NCBI GenBank assembly: GCA_030652805.1
Contig: JAUSPT010000053.1
Coordinates: 1 to 7,049 of the forward strand
Source of the DNA: a bacterium
GTDB taxonomy: Bacteria; JAHJDO01
Direction of reading: 5' to 3'
Length of the DNA: 7,049 bases
Both the position numbers and the translations under genes were made by a program. Below, piece by piece: positions 173 to 6,344 of this stretch (position 1 is the first letter of the stretch; each line of letters opens with the position of its first letter). The notes beneath the pieces were generated by a model. The model ran no database searches. It saw only the letters and a list, made by a program, of their open reading frames with translations, and was not told the DNA's origin.

Positions 173-202
173 TTGACAGGGAAATAGCAATTCTTGTAAT
201 AT
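173..202 (+). promoter_or_regulatory. Putative sigma-70-type promoter of the regulator gene
   Basis: A perfect TTGACA (173-178) is followed after 18 bases by TAATAT (197-202), a 4/6 match to the -10 consensus. The predicted transcription start falls around 208-210, inside the palindrome at 205-227, so a bound regulator would block initiation. A second TTGACA at 152-157 has no good -10 partner at normal spacing. The promoter is inferred from sequence only. Confidence 0.55.
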
Positions 203-204
203 CC

Positions 205-227
205 CAAATAGAAGTTGTTTCTATTTG
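205..227. promoter_or_regulatory. Zur/Fur-type operator, copy 1 (autoregulatory)
   Basis: This is a perfect 9-bp inverted repeat, CAAATAGAA and TTCTATTTG, separated by 5 bases (214-218). It starts 3 bases after the putative -10 and ends 13 bases before the regulator's ATG. The same arms recur at 671-693 and 5160-5182, which makes chance unlikely. Placement directly before a Fur-family gene suggests autorepression. Confidence 0.8.
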
Positions 228-240
228 TTTTTGGAAAGTT

Positions 241-657
241 ATGAAAATATATCTAGATAAATTGCAAGAAAAAAAATTTAAGCTTACTCCTCGGCGTATA
301 GCTATTATAAGTTTCTTTTTAAGCAGGGAACGATATCTAAATCCTGAAGTTATTTGGAAAGGGCTGAAAAAGAAGTTTAAACATCTAGGCTTGCCAAGCA
401 TCTATAGAAATCTGGAGTTATTTTCAAAGTGTGGGATACTTACAAAGATTCAGATGCCTGATAGAAGGCTTTATTATGGATTATGCAAGGCAAAGGACAA
501 CAAACACCACCATCATATAGTATGTATAAAATGCGGCAAAGTTGGAGAATTTCCTGAGGAAAATTTGTTTAAAAAGAAAACGATCAATGGATTTAAGGTA
601 TTAAATCATTTTTTGCAGATAGAAGGTATATGTTCTAATTGTAGGATAAAAAGCTGA
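241..657 (+). CDS. Fur-family metalloregulator, probably Zur-like
   Basis: This 138-residue protein is a metal-dependent DNA-binding repressor of the Fur superfamily. The N-terminal winged helix shows the family's LTPRR motif (15-19) and the recognition-helix pattern LGLPSIYRNLELFSKCGIL (49-67). The dimerisation domain carries HHHH at 89-92, then C95-x-x-C98-G-K, and a second C131-x-x-C134. These two CxxC pairs are the usual structural zinc site. H89-H92, E103 and H123 are candidate sensing ligands by family analogy. Length is near that of Bacillus Zur/PerR proteins. The ATG has a weak GGAAAG ribosome-binding site at 233-238. Metal specificity is not readable from the protein alone. I infer zinc because it heads a znuACB cluster and shares its operator with two other promoters there. 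Fur, Mur or PerR activity remains possible. Confidence 0.9.
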   Translation: MKIYLDKLQEKKFKLTPRRIAIISFFLSRERYLNPEVIWKGLKKKFKHLGLPSIYRNLELFSKCGILTKIQMPDRRLYYGLCKAKDNKHHHHIVCIKCGKVGEFPEENLFKKKTINGFKVLNHFLQIEGICSNCRIKS

Positions 658-670: not shown

Positions 671-693
671 TAAATAGAAATGATTTCTACTAT
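671..693. promoter_or_regulatory. Zur/Fur-type operator, copy 2, overlapping a start codon
   Basis: The left arm TAAATAGAA (671-679) is identical to that of copy 3. The right arm reads TTCTACTAT (685-693), matching the repeat for its first five bases and then diverging. The core TAGAAAT-G-ATTTCTA (675-689) is a perfect 7-1-7 palindrome, the geometry typical of Fur-family boxes. The ATG of the CcdA-like gene (680-682) lies in its centre. Confidence 0.7.
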
Positions 694-1375
694 TCAGAGG
701 ACATTAACGGAAACGCCTTTATTGGCTATATTCATTGTATTCTGGGCAGGAGCTATAGCCTCTTTGGGTTCCTGCACCTTAGTAAGAATCCCAGTGTTTT
801 TTGGATATGTTGTTGGAGCTTCAAACTCCAAAAATAAGTCTATACTTTTAACAGCCCTTTTTAGCTTAGGCCTTATTGTTAGTTATACTCTTTTTGGGGT
901 ATTTCTTGGTATTATCAGTAATTTAGCTGGCAAGTTAGTAGAGATAAGCAGATATATTTTCATGGGATTGGGTGTCTTATTATTTTTGAGTGGTCTATTC
1001 ATCTCCGGCTTGATTACCTGCTTTAACCTGCATTCTAACCGTCATATTAATAACAGGTTTAAAAGTACGAGCTTTCTTGGAACATTTCTGTTTGGAATAA
1101 CTTTTGCTTTTTTAGAAATGCCAGCTTGCCCTTGTTGTAGTTCAGTGCTTTTTGTTATTGCGGGGATTGTGGCTATAAAAGGTTCATTTTTATATTCTGT
1201 AATAATATTTTTCAGCTTTGCTGTGGGACAAAGTTTCCCAATACTATTGATTGGTTCATCAATGAATCTGGTTAAATATTTGACATCCAGGCTAACAAGA
1301 TTTGAGGAATATATTAGATTAATAGCGGGAGATATATTAATAGTTTTTAGTATGTACTTTTTTATCATAGCTTAA
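680..1375 (+). CDS. CcdA/DsbD-like membrane thiol-transport protein with a CPCC motif
   Basis: This 231-residue, very hydrophobic protein has about six membrane spans. It follows the CcdA/DsbD transmembrane plan: span 1 has GSCTLVRIPVFFGYVVG (30-46), with C32 where CcdA has its first redox cysteine, and span 4 has EMPACPCCSSVLFVIAG (146-162), where CcdA has its second cysteine. CcdA-type proteins pass electrons from cytoplasmic thioredoxin to extracytoplasmic thiol proteins. The second site is unusual: C150, C152 and C153 form CPCC instead of a single PCxxP cysteine. No ribosome-binding site precedes the ATG, which sits inside an operator. AGAGG (696-700) lies just after it, but no ordinary start follows at useful spacing, so near-leaderless translation is the likely reading. 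The next gene begins 12 bases downstream. The specific redox partner is unknown; the CPCC protein at 2011-2637 is a candidate. Confidence 0.75.
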   Translation: MISTIQRTLTETPLLAIFIVFWAGAIASLGSCTLVRIPVFFGYVVGASNSKNKSILLTALFSLGLIVSYTLFGVFLGIISNLAGKLVEISRYIFMGLGVLLFLSGLFISGLITCFNLHSNRHINNRFKSTSFLGTFLFGITFAFLEMPACPCCSSVLFVIAGIVAIKGSFLYSVIIFFSFAVGQSFPILLIGSSMNLVKYLTSRLTRFEEYIRLIAGDILIVFSMYFFIIA

Positions 1376-1387
1376 TGAGGATTTTTC

Positions 1388-2014
1388 ATGAAAAAATGTG
1401 AACTATCTTATAATTGTAGTCATGAGAATAAACATGAAAGGCACATAAAACAATCCACAAGATGGTTATTCAGTCTCATTTTTATCTCTATTAGTATTTT
1501 TCTTATAAAACCGTTTATGATCAGCCAATTACTCAATAGAGCTTCGTCATATACATCATATAATCTATACCCTGAAGCAATAAGGCAATATAAGAAAGTG
1601 TTAATTATGGATAAGCGCAATAATAATGCTTGGAACTGGTTAGCGTATAGCTATAAAAACGAAGGATATTTAGAAGAGGCTATACAGACTTACAAAGAAG
1701 CAATAAAGATTAACCCAGAAAACAGAGTCGCCCATTTCAACTTAGGTATGATATTTGTATCAAAAAAAGATTACAAAAAGGCTATTCAATGTTTTGAGCA
1801 GGTAAGAATTTCATCTTCTAAAACTAAAATCCAGAAAGCTATAAATATGGCTTCCTATCATAAATCGTCCTTGAACATGTTGTCGACCTGTTATGAAAGA
1901 TTGAAAGATTTTAATAAGGCAATAATTGTATTGGAAGAATTAACGAGATATTATCCTAATGATAGGATAGTGGAGGAAAAGCTTAACTTGCTGAAGAAGG
2001 AATTAAATAAGTGA
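1388..2014 (+). CDS. Membrane-anchored TPR protein with Cys/His-rich N-terminus
   Basis: This is a 208-residue protein. A short N-terminal segment contains C4, C10, H12, H16 and H19. One membrane span follows (about 26-48), then tetratricopeptide repeats at roughly 50-83, 85-113, 115-145 and 158-191. The second and third show the clearest pattern, for example LAYSYKNEGYLEEAIQTYKE. TPRs are protein-protein scaffolds. By the positive-inside rule the N-terminus is probably cytoplasmic and the repeats outside, though the topology is uncertain. GAGGA (1377-1381) sits 6 bases before the ATG and supports this start. The stop overlaps the next gene by 4 bases, so the two are probably translationally coupled. 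I infer an assembly or tethering role for neighbouring envelope proteins. The sequence does not reveal a specific partner. Confidence 0.75.
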   Translation: MKKCELSYNCSHENKHERHIKQSTRWLFSLIFISISIFLIKPFMISQLLNRASSYTSYNLYPEAIRQYKKVLIMDKRNNNAWNWLAYSYKNEGYLEEAIQTYKEAIKINPENRVAHFNLGMIFVSKKDYKKAIQCFEQVRISSSKTKIQKAINMASYHKSSLNMLSTCYERLKDFNKAIIVLEELTRYYPNDRIVEEKLNLLKKELNK

Positions 2015-2637
2015 AAGTAAGATTATCCCATATTTTTAAGTATCTTATGTTTTTCATATTATTTACTGTAATAGCCTCAACAAATGTAACTCGCACCGAA
2101 AGACCACTTCTTTATTCAATGAAATGGCTGCACGAAGCAAAAGCAGCGTCGATAGACAATAACGCAAAAGTCGAAGTAGAAGTAAAGACAGCCAAAAACG
2201 AAAAAATTTATACATTAAATTTCAAAGCACTTGAAAAAACAGAAAGGGATATTATTAACACAGATAAAAATAACATGACAGGGATCTCTGAAGAAGTTTT
2301 TAATCTGCATGGAAAGACAGTTAAAATTACAGGATACTTTCTTGTGCCGGCTGAAGCATATTTTTTAAACACTCCAGTAAGCAGTTTTGCTGTGTCTAAA
2401 AATGCTTATGGTTGTCCTTGTTGTTCATGGGGTCCGCTGCCTACAATATTTAATACAGCAATAGTAACTATGAAAAAAGGACTTAAGGTAAATCCGCCAT
2501 TTCCTCAGCTTGTAGAGGTTAGAGGAACATTTATGGTTAAAAAAGAATATTATACCGCTGAAGACGGCAAGGAGTATTTAACAGGTCTTTTCTTTATAAA
2601 GAATGCCGAAGCGGAGGAAAAGAAAAGGCGTTTTTGA
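2011..2637 (+). CDS. DUF3299-like exported protein with a CPCC motif
   Basis: This is a 208-residue protein with a GTG start that overlaps the preceding TGA; AAGGA at 1998-2002 precedes it by 8 bases. An N-terminal hydrophobic stretch (about 8-24) is a signal peptide or anchor. The domain at about 95-200 resembles DUF3299: GKTVKITGYFLVP (101-113), a cysteine-centred loop YGCPCCSWGPLPTIFN (133-148), and VEVRGTFMVKKEY (168-180). In that family the loop usually carries a cysteine followed by a proline-rich PPxN segment. Here C135, C137 and C138 make CPCC, a plausible thiol or metal site. DUF3299 genes are known beside zinc-responsive transport genes in other bacteria, which fits the position just ahead of znuA. 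Function is not established. The family call rests on pattern recognition and should be tested by profile search. Confidence 0.65.
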   Translation: MKVRLSHIFKYLMFFILFTVIASTNVTRTERPLLYSMKWLHEAKAASIDNNAKVEVEVKTAKNEKIYTLNFKALEKTERDIINTDKNNMTGISEEVFNLHGKTVKITGYFLVPAEAYFLNTPVSSFAVSKNAYGCPCCSWGPLPTIFNTAIVTMKKGLKVNPPFPQLVEVRGTFMVKKEYYTAEDGKEYLTGLFFIKNAEAEEKKRRF

Positions 2638-2668: not shown

Positions 2669-3559
2669 ATGAAAAGATTAATGGTTCTTTTGGTTGTTAC
2701 TGCTTTACTGGTAAATGGTAAAACAATCAATGCTCAGTCTATTCAAGACAGCAAGAAAAAGATTGGAGTTGTCGTAACTATACTTCCTCTGGCTGATTTT
2801 GTAGAGAACATAGGGAAAGATAAAGTTGATGTGTCTGTTATGATTCCTCCGGGCGGGAACCCCCATACTTATGAACCAACTCCAAGTCAGTTAAAACAGG
2901 TAAGCCAAGCGCAAATGTATGTGAAAGTGGGCTCAGGGGTTGAATTTGAATTAGCCTGGATGGATAAACTCGCTTCTTTAAACAAGAATATGCTTATTTG
3001 CGATAGTTCAGAAGGTATTAGATTGATAGAGATGACGGAGCACCATCATGAGGAAAATGAAGGACATCATCGTGGCAGAGATCCACATATTTGGCTTTCT
3101 CCAGTTAATGCGATGCTGATGGTAACAAGCATTAAAAATGCTCTTATTGAAATCGACTCAGGGAACAAAGAATTTTATACTCATAATGCACAGGAGTTCA
3201 TCTTAAGGCTAGACAATCTTAATAAAGAATTCGGAGATAAGCTTTCTGCATTAAAAAACAGGTCTTTTGTTGTTTTTCATCCTGCATGGGGCTATTTTGC
3301 TGCTGATTATGGTTTAAAGCAAATACCGATTGAAGTTGAAGGCAAAGAACCTACTGCTAAAGAATTGACTCAACTAATAAAGGAAGCGAAAAAATGTAAC
3401 ATAAAAGTTGTTTTTTCTTCTCCTCAGTTTAGTAAAAAAAGCGCTGAAGTTATTGCCAAAGAAATTAACGGTAAAGTTGTATTTATGGATCCCTTAGCTA
3501 AAAACTATATAGAAAATTTACATAAGGTTGTAGATGCATTTACCCAAAGTTTAAAATGA
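2669..3559 (+). CDS. znuA: Zinc ABC transporter, substrate-binding protein
   Basis: This 296-residue cluster A-I metal-binding protein delivers zinc to ZnuBC outside the cytoplasmic membrane. A signal peptide covers about residues 1-22, with likely cleavage near NAQ. No lipobox cysteine is present, so it should be soluble periplasmic. The expected metal ligands are all there: H66 in GGNPHTYEP, H140 in DPHIWLSP, H204 in FHPAWGYF, and D274 in MDPLA. Between the first two lies a short acidic, His-rich loop (about 124-134, with HHH at 125-127 and HH at 133-134). Such a loop is characteristic of zinc-specific rather than manganese-specific members. The gene follows the DUF3299-like gene by 31 bases and overlaps znuC by 4. 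Zinc specificity is inferred from the loop and the regulator. Manganese or mixed use is less likely. Confidence 0.93.
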   Translation: MKRLMVLLVVTALLVNGKTINAQSIQDSKKKIGVVVTILPLADFVENIGKDKVDVSVMIPPGGNPHTYEPTPSQLKQVSQAQMYVKVGSGVEFELAWMDKLASLNKNMLICDSSEGIRLIEMTEHHHEENEGHHRGRDPHIWLSPVNAMLMVTSIKNALIEIDSGNKEFYTHNAQEFILRLDNLNKEFGDKLSALKNRSFVVFHPAWGYFAADYGLKQIPIEVEGKEPTAKELTQLIKEAKKCNIKVVFSSPQFSKKSAEVIAKEINGKVVFMDPLAKNYIENLHKVVDAFTQSLK

Positions 3560-4323
3560 ATAGCGAAAAAGAAATTGTTAGTTTAAAAAATATTTATGTG
3601 GATTATGACGACCAGACTGTCTTGGAAGGTGTGAGCCTTTCTATAAAAGCAAATGACTTTTTGGGTATAATTGGGCCGAATGGAGGAGGAAAGACTACGT
3701 TGCTTAAAGTAATCCTTGGCTTGATAAATCCAAAGGGTGGAGAAATTAAAGTTTTTGGAGAAAAGCCTAATAAGGTAAGGAGATTTGTAGGATATGTTCC
3801 GCAGACCCGTATTTTTGATCGGGAGTTTCCTGTGAACGTTTGGGATGTTGTGTTGATGGGCAGACTTTCCCACACGAGCCTATTTAACTATTACAGTGAG
3901 GAAGATAGAAATATTACCCATCAAGCTCTCAAGACCGTAGAAATGCTTGATTTCAAATATAGACAAATAGGCAAACTCTCTGAAGGTCAGAGACAAAGGG
4001 TTTTTATCGCTAGAGCTCTTACCTCTGAACCTAGGCTTCTTCTTCTTGATGAACCGACAGCAAGTGTTGATACGCATATGCAGCAAGGAGTTTATGAGTT
4101 ATTAAAAAGATTAAAGGATAAGATGGCAATTGTCTTAGTGTCGCATGATATTGGAGTAATTTCGAGTTTCGTAGATAAGATTGCTTGTCTTAACCGCAGG
4201 CTCTTTTACCATAACTCTAAAGAAATAACCAGAAAAGATCTGGAGACAGTCTATCAATGTCCTGTAGAGATGATAGCGCATGGTATCCCTCACAGGGTAA
4301 TGAAGGAGCATAAAGAAAAATGA
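3556..4323 (+). CDS. znuC: Zinc ABC transporter, ATP-binding protein
   Basis: This 255-residue ATPase powers zinc import through ZnuB at the inner face of the membrane. All ABC motifs are intact: Walker [10 protein letters not shown] (40-48), Q-loop glutamine in GYVPQ (Q83), signature LSEGQ (141-145), Walker B LLLLDEP (161-167) with catalytic E166, D-loop SVD (170-172), and H-loop H197 in VSHD. GGGK in Walker A, rather than GSGK, is normal for this transporter subfamily. [13 protein letters not shown] (91-103) is the family's coupling-region pattern. The ATG overlaps the znuA stop (ATGA), and the gene's own stop overlaps znuB in the same way, so the three subunits are translationally coupled. 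Confidence 0.93.
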
Positions 4324-5144
4324 TAGAAGCATTGCAATATGAGTTTATAAGAAATGCTTTATTAGCTGCAATACTTGCTAGCATTGCCTGTGGGATTATC
4401 GGGACATACGTTGTCGTAAAAAGAATAGTTTTTATAAGCGGCGGTATTGCTCATGCCGCCTTTGGCGGTATTGGGTTGGGATATTTTTTGGGAATAAATC
4501 CAGTATTGGGAGTAATACCTTTTAGCATTGCGTCTGCGCTGGGTATAGGATTGGTGAGCAGAAAAAGTAAACTTCCTGAAGATACGACCATTGGGATTTT
4601 TTGGTCAATGGGAATGGCTCTAGGTGTTATCTTTATTGGGCTTACTCCAGGTTATGCCCCTGACCTTTTTAGCTACCTTTTCGGCAACATTTTAACCGTA
4701 CCATTTTCCGATGTAATTCTCATGCTTATTCTAGATTTTATCATTATTGTGTCGGTGAGTTTGCTGTATAAAGAGTTTTTAGCCCTTTCTTTTGATGAGG
4801 AATTCGCAGAAATATCAGGAATTAAAGTTACGATACTTTATTTATTTCTCTTAAGTCTTGTTGCCATCACAGTGGTAATGCTTGTGAGGATTGTTGGTAT
4901 TATTCTGGTAATTGCTTTATTAACGATTCCTGCTGCAATCGCAAAACAGTATACAGATAGTTTAAGGAAAATGATGTTCCTCTCTATTTTTTTTGGCGTT
5001 CTGTTTACTCTGTGTGGCTTATGGTTTTCTTACCTTTTCGACATGGCATCCGGAGCAACAATCATCCTGTTTTCAGGGTGCGCTTTTGGGATTTCTTCAA
5101 CATATAAAAGTATCACTAAACGCTTGCATAATACACGCATGTAA
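4320..5144 (+). CDS. znuB: Zinc ABC transporter, permease (ABC-3 family)
   Basis: This 274-residue integral membrane protein has about eight spans and works as a homodimer forming the zinc channel. Recognisable ABC-3 family segments are [19 protein letters not shown] (40-58, the usual S-x-x-x-x-HA block), the cytoplasmic [14 protein letters not shown] (155-168), which contacts the ATPase, and [18 protein letters not shown] (from about 192). The length is slightly above the roughly 260 residues of E. coli ZnuB. The gene overlaps znuC by 4 bases and ends the transporter set. Forty-nine bases then separate it from the Cys/His-rich gene, and a third operator lies there. No convincing hairpin-plus-T-tract terminator follows the stop. 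Confidence 0.92.
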
Positions 5145-5160: not shown

Positions 5161-5182
5161 AAATAGAAATAGCTTCTATTTA
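5160..5182. promoter_or_regulatory. Zur/Fur-type operator, copy 3
   Basis: Perfect 9-bp arms TAAATAGAA (5160-5168) and TTCTATTTA (5174-5182) flank a 5-base spacer. It lies between znuB and the Cys/His-rich gene, 11 bases before that gene's ATG. Its arms differ from copy 1 only at the outermost base pair. This is strong evidence that the last gene of the cluster can be controlled on its own by the same regulator. Confidence 0.8.
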
Positions 5183-5193
5183 GAACAAGAGAT

Positions 5194-5544
5194 ATGAAAA
5201 TTATTATTAGAGCAGGACGAATTTTAGGTATTGCATTATTCGTAAGTGGTGTCGTTCTTTATCTTTTATTTGCTTCTTTTCATCCTCTGCTTCATAATCA
5301 TTCAGGCTGTGAATATAGCAACCACTGTTGCGATACGCACAGTGATTCTAACAGACATCATCCAGATTGTCCTGCCTGTAACTTTTTATTTGTAGCCGCT
5401 TTTTTTGATATACCAGAGATAGTTATTGTCCCTACTATTTCATATCATGTAGCCTTTGGAACATTTTTTGACTATCAACAACCGTACCAACAGTTATGTT
5501 ATGACTGTCACTCCATCCGTGGACCTCCTATAATCTCTGTATAG
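5194..5544 (+). CDS. Small Cys/His-rich membrane-anchored protein
   Basis: This 116-residue protein has one N-terminal membrane span (about 10-29) followed by a short domain dense in metal-binding residues. It contains seven cysteines (39, 45, 46, 59, 62, 102, 105) and nine histidines. Clusters include HPLLHNHSGC (30-39), NHCCDTH (43-49), HHPDCPAC (55-62) and CYDCHSIRGPP (102-112). The CPAC motif and RGPP tail recall short DUF2946-type membrane proteins found in metal-related operons, but that assignment is tentative. Composition and placement under its own copy of the operator suggest binding of zinc or another soft metal at the outer membrane face. The ribosome-binding site is poor (AAGAG, 5187-5191), and no alternative start is better. 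Whether it serves as reservoir, sensor or donor to ZnuA cannot be told from sequence. Confidence 0.7.
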   Translation: MKIIIRAGRILGIALFVSGVVLYLLFASFHPLLHNHSGCEYSNHCCDTHSDSNRHHPDCPACNFLFVAAFFDIPEIVIVPTISYHVAFGTFFDYQQPYQQLCYDCHSIRGPPIISV

Positions 5545-5645: not shown

Positions 5646-6344
5646 ATGCAATATTATAAAAAAGGATTTAGAAGAGTTTTAAACTGGATTCAAAGAATGA
5701 GAGGATTTTCACTGATTGAGCTTTTGGTTGTGACTGCGATTATCGCTATGCTTGCGTCAATGTTACTTCCAGCTCTTGCAAAAGCGAGGGAAGTAGCAAG
5801 AAAAGCCAAGTGTATTTCTAACCTGCGTCAGATTGGAATGGCTCTACATATGTATGCAGAGGATAATGGGGAGTATTTCCCTCATGTTCATCAGGGTCCC
5901 ACATATACTGATACAGCAATGACATCAAGTCAAGAGTGGTGGGAATTTCTTGAGCCATATTCTAATGGTATATACGATTATATGAAGTGTCCTTCAGATC
6001 CTCATCGAGATGAAGCAGGTATCGAGAGCTATATATTTAATGGAATGTTTGCTTTTGGTAAAAAAATAGGACAGGTGAAGATGACAAGTGAGAGAATTAT
6101 TGTTTCAGAAAGGGCAGATGAAGGTGGTGTTCTCACACATCAGGGCTATCCTGCATGGAAGACTCATGCTGAATGGCGAAGCAGTATAAAAGAAAATAGA
6201 CATGGGGACGGTTCAAATTATCTCTTTGTTGATGGACATGTCAAATGGCATCGATTTGAAGAGACTATTGGGACAAGACCCAGTTGTGACATGCACTATG
6301 TTGCAGGATTTGATCATGGTGGAGCTTGGCAGGATATTGAATAA
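5646..6344 (+). CDS. Type II secretion/type IV pilin-like protein (pseudopilin) with H-X9-DG motif
   Basis: This 232-residue protein begins with a basic 20-residue leader. The prepilin peptidase site follows at G20/F21SLIE, with the conserved glutamate E25. A hydrophobic helix runs to about residue 43 and continues as an amphipathic stretch to [10 protein letters not shown] (55-64) and [11 protein letters not shown] (69-79). The C-terminal part has CPSD (115-118) and the H-X9-DG signature, H186 to D196-G197 in [11 protein letters not shown]. Such proteins are assembled into or exported by type II secretion/type IV pilus-like machines, and they occur in many copies in PVC-group genomes. AGGAG (5634-5638), 7 bases before the first ATG, supports this start over M18. 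No other secretion gene is nearby, so the substrate or partner is unknown and the link to zinc uptake may be mere adjacency. Confidence 0.88.

Follow-up and report, generated by a model that had tools for sequence, protein, structure and literature searches.

Organization of the locus

The window, that is, the whole stretch of 7,049 nucleotides that was analysed, is an entire 7.0-kb contig (C53) of a bacterial genome assembled to 2.0 Mb (G000). Its plus strand carries, in order, fur, a ccdA-like gene, genes for a TPR protein and an exported DUF3299-like protein, znuA, znuC, znuB, and a gene for a small membrane protein (Table 1). Start and stop codons overlap at 2011/2014, 3556/3559, and 4320/4323 and the gaps elsewhere are short, so co-transcription of these genes is likely. 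Members of the ZnuA, ZnuC, and ZnuB families (PF01297, PF00005, and PF00950) are all present together and, with the Fur-family gene and the common operators, bear out the zinc-uptake operon that had been proposed in an earlier note on this DNA. The window is most likely a metal-starvation operon under a Fur/Zur-type repressor, with zinc as the metal, as suggested by ZnuABC and the His-rich loop of ZnuA. It shares with ZnuABC systems controlled by Zur a complete importer, a His-rich ZnuA, a Fur-family regulator, and palindromic operators, and differs from them in its four accessory genes and in the operator, TAAATAGAAATnATTTCTATTTA.

Table 1. Features of the window with their positions and the evidence for each.
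Feature	Position	Strand	Basis
Sigma-70-like promoter TTGACA-18-TAATAT, upstream of fur	173..202	+	10/12 match
Operator 1, AATAGAAGTTGTTTCTATT, directly 3' of the fur -10 hexamer	207..225	.	Palindrome scan
Fur-family metalloregulator, probably Zur	241..657	+	PF01475, E 4.8e-24
Operator 2, AATAGAAATGATTTCTACT, overlapping the ccdA start codon	673..691	.	One mismatch
CcdA/DsbD-type membrane thiol carrier, CPxC subfamily; C32 (site 1), C150-P-C152-C153 (site 2)	680..1375	+	PF02683, E 2.2e-13
CPCC codons of the CcdA-like protein	1127..1138	+	Sequence
Membrane-anchored TPR protein with a Cys/His tail of 25 residues and a single TM segment at about 27-45, followed by predicted external TPRs	1388..2014	+	TPR families up to 8e-24; hydropathy
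Exported DUF3299-like (ZrgE-like) protein with YGCPCCSWGPLPTIFN, N-terminal TM/signal segment, GTG start	2011..2637	+	hhalign; sub-threshold PF11736 of paralogs
CPCC codons of the DUF3299-like protein	2413..2424	+	Sequence
ZnuA-type substrate-binding protein, His-rich loop HHHEENEGHHRGRDPH	2669..3559	+	PF01297, E 2.2e-79
ZnuC-type ATPase	3556..4323	+	PF00005, E 3.7e-31
ZnuB-type ABC-3 permease	4320..5144	+	PF00950, E 9.5e-83
Operator 3, AATAGAAATAGCTTCTATT, upstream of the small membrane protein gene	5162..5180	.	Palindrome scan
Small membrane protein, Cys/His-rich stretch HNHSGCEYSNHCCDTHSDSNRHHPDCPAC	5194..5544	+	Sequence; hydropathy

Pfam and NCBIfam searches with the small membrane protein gave no meaningful family match; operator 3 places it in the same regulon. 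A small protein with HHDGDDGHECSIC is also present in the operon of genome G221 (locus L028, 12395-12670). The Cys/His-rich stretches of these two proteins end in CPAC (window) and CSIC (G221), and both proteins resemble ZrgD and DUF2946, a likeness that carries no family score.

Regulator, promoter, and operators

Membership of the regulator in the Fur family is given by PF01475, and its assignment to Zur rests on the operon content; the Zur equivalog model NF008646 scores it at 29.0 bits, below the cut-off of 167. The operators are copies of a 19-bp palindrome, AATAGAAnnnnnTTCTATT, of which the window holds three, and the fur promoter ends five bases upstream of the first. Only three more sites with at most one mismatch to the palindrome are found in the rest of the genome; look-alikes at C28, C12, and C71 were rejected, as all lie within genes.

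Homologs of the window regulator stand at the head of three other loci, L008 (UBA6233), L028 (G221), and L109 (G366). In each of these, the perfect palindrome TAAATAGAAATnATTTCTATTTA lies directly behind the promoter of fur, with TTGACA at a spacing similar to that in the window. The palindrome was not found in seven related CcdA-TPR loci that are devoid of a metal importer. On this distribution, the regulator, the operator, and the module travel together. A palindrome search of contig C58 (L004), which holds a second copy of the cassette in the same genome, gave zero matches; this contig starts inside a fur gene, so the promoter lies off its end.

The CcdA-like carrier and its TPR neighbour

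The CcdA-like protein scores above the curated PF02683 cut-off (50.4 bits vs 27.1), and in alignments its C32 matches the first PC site of CcdA/DsbD_TM and its C150/C152/C153 the second, one site per repeat. It has in common with the CcdA/DsbD transmembrane domain (PF02683, PF13386) the fold family, the first-site cysteine, and the architecture of a thiol carrier. The second site is where it departs: the CPCC claimed for this position is present, as PACPCCSS, and the site reads A-C-P-C-C instead of the x-P-C or close variant of the best-scoring other CcdA proteins compared, none of which has CPCC. Across the subfamily this site is CPCC or CPVC, with about three extra residues. The first site of the window protein is likewise SC instead of PC. 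Its best NCBIfam match is NF040495 (E 8.5e-15), although identity with ArsG was rejected on score (54.7 bits vs an equivalog cut-off of 200); unlike ArsG-type CcdA homologs, it has no arsenic genes near it in the window.

A survey of 384 Omnitrophota genomes returned ten members of the subfamily, two of them in cassettes already known, and the two copies in G000 bring the total to 12 loci. These CPxC proteins form one fully supported group separate from canonical CcdA. Their alignment shows C32 as an invariant first-site cysteine, and the second site is CPCC in eight loci and CPVC in four; in the CPVC relatives the canonical second-site position is V and the neighbouring cysteines are kept. 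Among plasmid sequences, just one distant CcdA relative was found, and the literature searched contained no description of a CcdA with CPCC. AlphaFold models of this protein and of the DUF3299-like protein, built from two-row alignments, were too poor for use (pLDDT 46 and 44, respectively).

The constant neighbour of the CPxC-type ccdA is the TPR gene, which stands directly behind it in 12/12 loci. Positive charges precede its single TM segment, which would place the tail in the cytosol and the TPRs outside. In metal loci the tail is rich in Cys and His (CELSYNCSHENKH in the window, HCSCSHSHNHD in C58, a long His run in L109), and in L110-L115 it is plain or lost.

The LysE-type transporter superfamily counts CcdA as well as metal transporters among its members, and the CPxC of the window protein lies inside or beside a hydrophobic segment. 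Together with the adjoining metal importers and the Cys/His tails of the TPR protein, this would fit a metal carrier in place of an electron carrier, with metal bound at the membrane-helix CPCC, much as at the CPC of heavy-metal P-type ATPases, and buffered by the TPR tail. Against such a role, every member of the subfamily alignment keeps the CcdA-type C32 and the subfamily also occurs in non-metal contexts, such as beside a thiol peroxidase in L108, and we regard it as decidedly unlikely.

The exported DUF3299-like protein

The second CPCC claimed in the earlier note is likewise present, as YGCPCCSWGP (C135, C137, C138). The two CPCC genes are co-located, as had been stated, but they are separated by a single gene, that of the TPR protein, and not by three genes' length. 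The DUF3299-like label had no direct support, in that the window protein has neither a Pfam match nor a meaningful NCBIfam match at E<=0.1, but it stands by way of its relatives. A profile of four copies compared with 21 DUF3299 proteins (hhalign) gave a probability of 98% and an E-value of 1.3e-12 over 186 columns, in one comparison made without a database background, and two paralogs of the window protein scored 14.2 and 15.4 bits against PF11736, under the gathering cut-off of 22. On these profile scores, the exported CPCC protein is related to the DUF3299 (ZrgE) family but has diverged from it. A search of the PDB with a profile from three copies gave nothing significant, and relatives were not found among the viral contigs or plasmids searched.

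One cysteine column (C159) is invariant across the DUF3299 alignment. The forms of the site include ACIHxPPPPxN, ACCFG, CFFC, and CLFC; in the copies studied here the Cys and the P..P..N of the Cys-PPPPxN motif are kept, and a GCPCC with inserted residues replaces CIH. As with zrgE, many ordinary DUF3299 genes adjoin a MacB/FtsX-like ABC pair, according to our reading of the flanking ORFs, and no CcdA lies within 1.5 kb of any of the 21 ordinary DUF3299 loci. In L030 (453-1454), a DUF3299 gene adjoins a COG0523-like GTPase with a GCMCC motif. COG0523-like GTPases are a family of zinc chaperones, and the neighbourhood again ties DUF3299 to zinc.

Copies and distribution of the cassette

The three-gene cassette (CcdA, TPR, and DUF3299-like) is present in four copies, two in G000 and one each in G221 and UBA6233, and an ABC-3 importer adjoins it in all four; L109 has a variant of this arrangement. 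The operon layout and operator recur in distant uncultured bacteria. UBA6233 (L008) has fur, importer, and cassette. The second G000 copy (C58, L004) has YGCPCCDWG in the DUF3299-like protein and CPCC in CcdA, and our own reading of its sequence gives the order binding protein, ATPase, ABC-3 permease, CcdA, TPR, DUF3299-like, NikR, porin-like, CbiM, and CbiN. The gene order in G221 is the same, with fur at the front. C58 and G221 are 90% identical over 4.6 kb, which points either to DNA that moved recently from one distant lineage to another or to a contig placed in the wrong bin. In both loci (L004, 2682-8544; L028, 4684-12347), the genes after the cassette encode NikR, a porin-like protein of the outer membrane, and CbiMN, neighbours that suggest a nickel regulon; with NikR and CbiMN beside the second copy, zinc is uncertain as the sole metal.

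The exported CPCC protein is rare, being found in 2/384 of the Omnitrophota genomes sampled and in no other genome of a set of 385 spread over bacteria. Of three weak matches in the latter set, those in G630 and G069 (L024, L025) were rejected because they cover the N-terminal part only, and the third (G526, L026) is a weak match only; a match in G048 (L007), likewise N-terminal, was set aside. A scan of genome contigs with short exact patterns yielded UBA6233 alone.

Relationship between the two CPCC motifs

The tetrad had been called rare; TGYCCNTGYTGY matches 14 places in the 2.0 Mb genome, and four of these are the two cassettes. Of the remaining ten, three are in frame in ORFs of at least 40 aa (40, 47, and 59 aa), among which the 47-aa ORF alone is a plausible gene, with the look of a zinc ribbon. 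The paired occurrence of CPCC exceeds chance. Conservation in orthologs had been set beforehand as a test, and both proteins keep CPCC in 4/4 copies, with the DUF3299-like protein directly behind the CPCC CcdA-TPR each time.

These four copies are what speaks for the idea that the carrier and exported motifs co-evolved as a strictly matched pair. The wider survey contradicts the co-occurrence that had been expected of the two proteins, in that 8/12 loci of the CcdA subfamily have no exported CPCC protein; CcdA has CPCC in four of these (L108, L109, L114, L115) and CPVC in the other four (L110-L113). A DUF3299 protein was not detected in L108, L114, or L115, and L109, a syntenic fur-ccdA-TPR-znuA-znuC-znuB-DUF3299-small operon, combines a CPCC CcdA with a CLFC DUF3299. 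An exclusive pairing is thus highly improbable.

Judged by these neighbourhoods, the recurring unit is CcdA-TPR, to which metal operons add a DUF3299 protein that bears Cys. In 7/12 loci CcdA-TPR is accompanied by neither DUF3299 nor a metal importer, and four of these are neighbourhoods of NuoEFG/hydrogenase type. It is conceivable, then, that CcdA-TPR has a general thiol or assembly role in the envelope and is merely recruited to the operon, where it serves a metal-binding or another exported protein, and that the DUF3299-like protein gained its CPCC independently, by elaboration of the family cysteine site, which also takes its various forms (ACIH, ACCFG, CFFC, CLFC, CPCC) in proteins with no CcdA neighbour. 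The invariable position of the CPCC DUF3299 gene directly behind ccdA-TPR (4/4), and the Cys-bearing DUF3299 of the syntenic L109, make this account somewhat unlikely.

Two of these neighbourhoods deserve description. In L110-L113 (G370, G116, G130, G215), the CPVC CcdA and TPR genes adjoin NuoE/NuoF/NuoG- or hydrogenase-like genes in conserved order, and CcdA-TPR is possibly an overlooked partner of some electron-bifurcating complex there. In L108 (4709-5692), which has no metal importer, the CPCC CcdA and TPR genes adjoin thiol-peroxidase-like and small lipoprotein-like genes.

Comparison with the Zrg system

The closest known counterpart of the exported protein is ZrgE (PF11736), encoded in the Zur-regulated zrgABCDE. 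Both are exported proteins of a zinc-starvation operon beside an ABC importer, and both appear to have a DUF3299-like core in which an invariant Cys precedes a stretch rich in P and containing N. ZrgE has ACIHxPPPPxN where the window protein has CPCC; ZrgE accompanies a MacB/FtsX-like permease and ZrgA, whereas the window protein accompanies ZnuACB, CcdA, and TPR. Neither ZrgA (DUF2796) nor the MacB-like permease ZrgB has a family member among the window proteins by Pfam. In vibrios the gene responds strongly to zinc starvation, with zrgE of Vibrio parahaemolyticus induced 76-fold by zinc lack (PMC9817125). The functions of ZrgD and ZrgE are not known, and the structure of Pseudomonas aeruginosa ZrgE, probably PDB 4hsp (PA4066), offered no clue (PMC9820375). 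Single zrgD or zrgE knockouts of Vibrio cholerae grew undiminished under zinc chelation (reported in PMC9820375), and the ZrgE-like protein may therefore be dispensable.

The literature search found no published description of the three-gene set with znuACB, in agreement with the novelty claimed for it. The gene combination and the CPxC CcdA-TPR unit appear to be undescribed, and their parts are members or relatives of known families. One apparent precedent for CcdA with Znu (PMC3668242) was rejected, as it concerns a metal-induced ccdA beside cadA, in another operon.

Proposed function

The presence of a divergent, Cys-enriched DUF3299 relative, a thiol carrier, and a metal importer in one operon gives rise to a testable idea, namely that a thiol metal site is kept reduced from inside the cell. 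The genomics are well supported, and from them we infer a thiol relay, with a probability of roughly 45%, as the best explanation of the locus: an accessory module in which CcdA would pass reducing equivalents outward and so keep exported cysteine metal sites reduced. This envelope module would consist of the CPxC CcdA, the membrane TPR protein, the DUF3299-like CPCC protein, and the small His/Cys membrane protein, and would be made when metal is scarce and the repressor leaves the operators. Electrons from cytosolic thioredoxin would flow through C32 and the CPCC helix of CcdA to exported thiols, most directly to the CPCC of the DUF3299-like protein; the reduced cysteines could then hold a metal ion and pass it on, either to the binding protein or to the permease. 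The TPR protein may serve CcdA as an adaptor and may use its tail to capture metal as it comes in.

Several observations favour this outward relay: the confinement of the operators to the window promoters and the palindrome before fur in L008, L028, and L109; the importers beside the cassette (4/4) and the Cys/His-rich TPR tails of metal loci; the conserved first redox cysteine in a DsbD_TM protein with CPxC/CPCC at its second site; and a DUF3299 site that always bears Cys, in a family whose ZrgE is induced by zinc lack (PMC9817125). CPCC-type CcdA without an exported CPCC protein counts against the relay, as do the undiminished growth of the Vibrio cholerae knockouts and the second copy beside NikR/CbiMN, which suggests that the metal is perhaps not always zinc.

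A further point against the relay concerns the electron acceptor. CcdA usually serves a thioredoxin-fold partner, and none is encoded in the window operon, which in this respect also differs from CcdA/DsbD systems; the nearest acceptor would therefore be the DUF3299-like or the TPR protein. The cassette has the look of a small accessory, for redox work or metal handover, with which several uncultured bacteria have equipped their metal importers. An extension of the relay, which we consider unlikely and offer as speculation, is redox-coupled metal acquisition, in which cytosolic reducing power would drive metal loading or release at the exported CPCC, and the module would plug into different ABC-3 importers, for zinc in one copy and perhaps nickel in the other.

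Beyond the operon, the window also encodes a prepilin-like protein (5646-6344), unrelated to the operon, that bears a methylation motif at its N-terminus and the H-X9-DG motif (TIGR04294) at its C-terminus.
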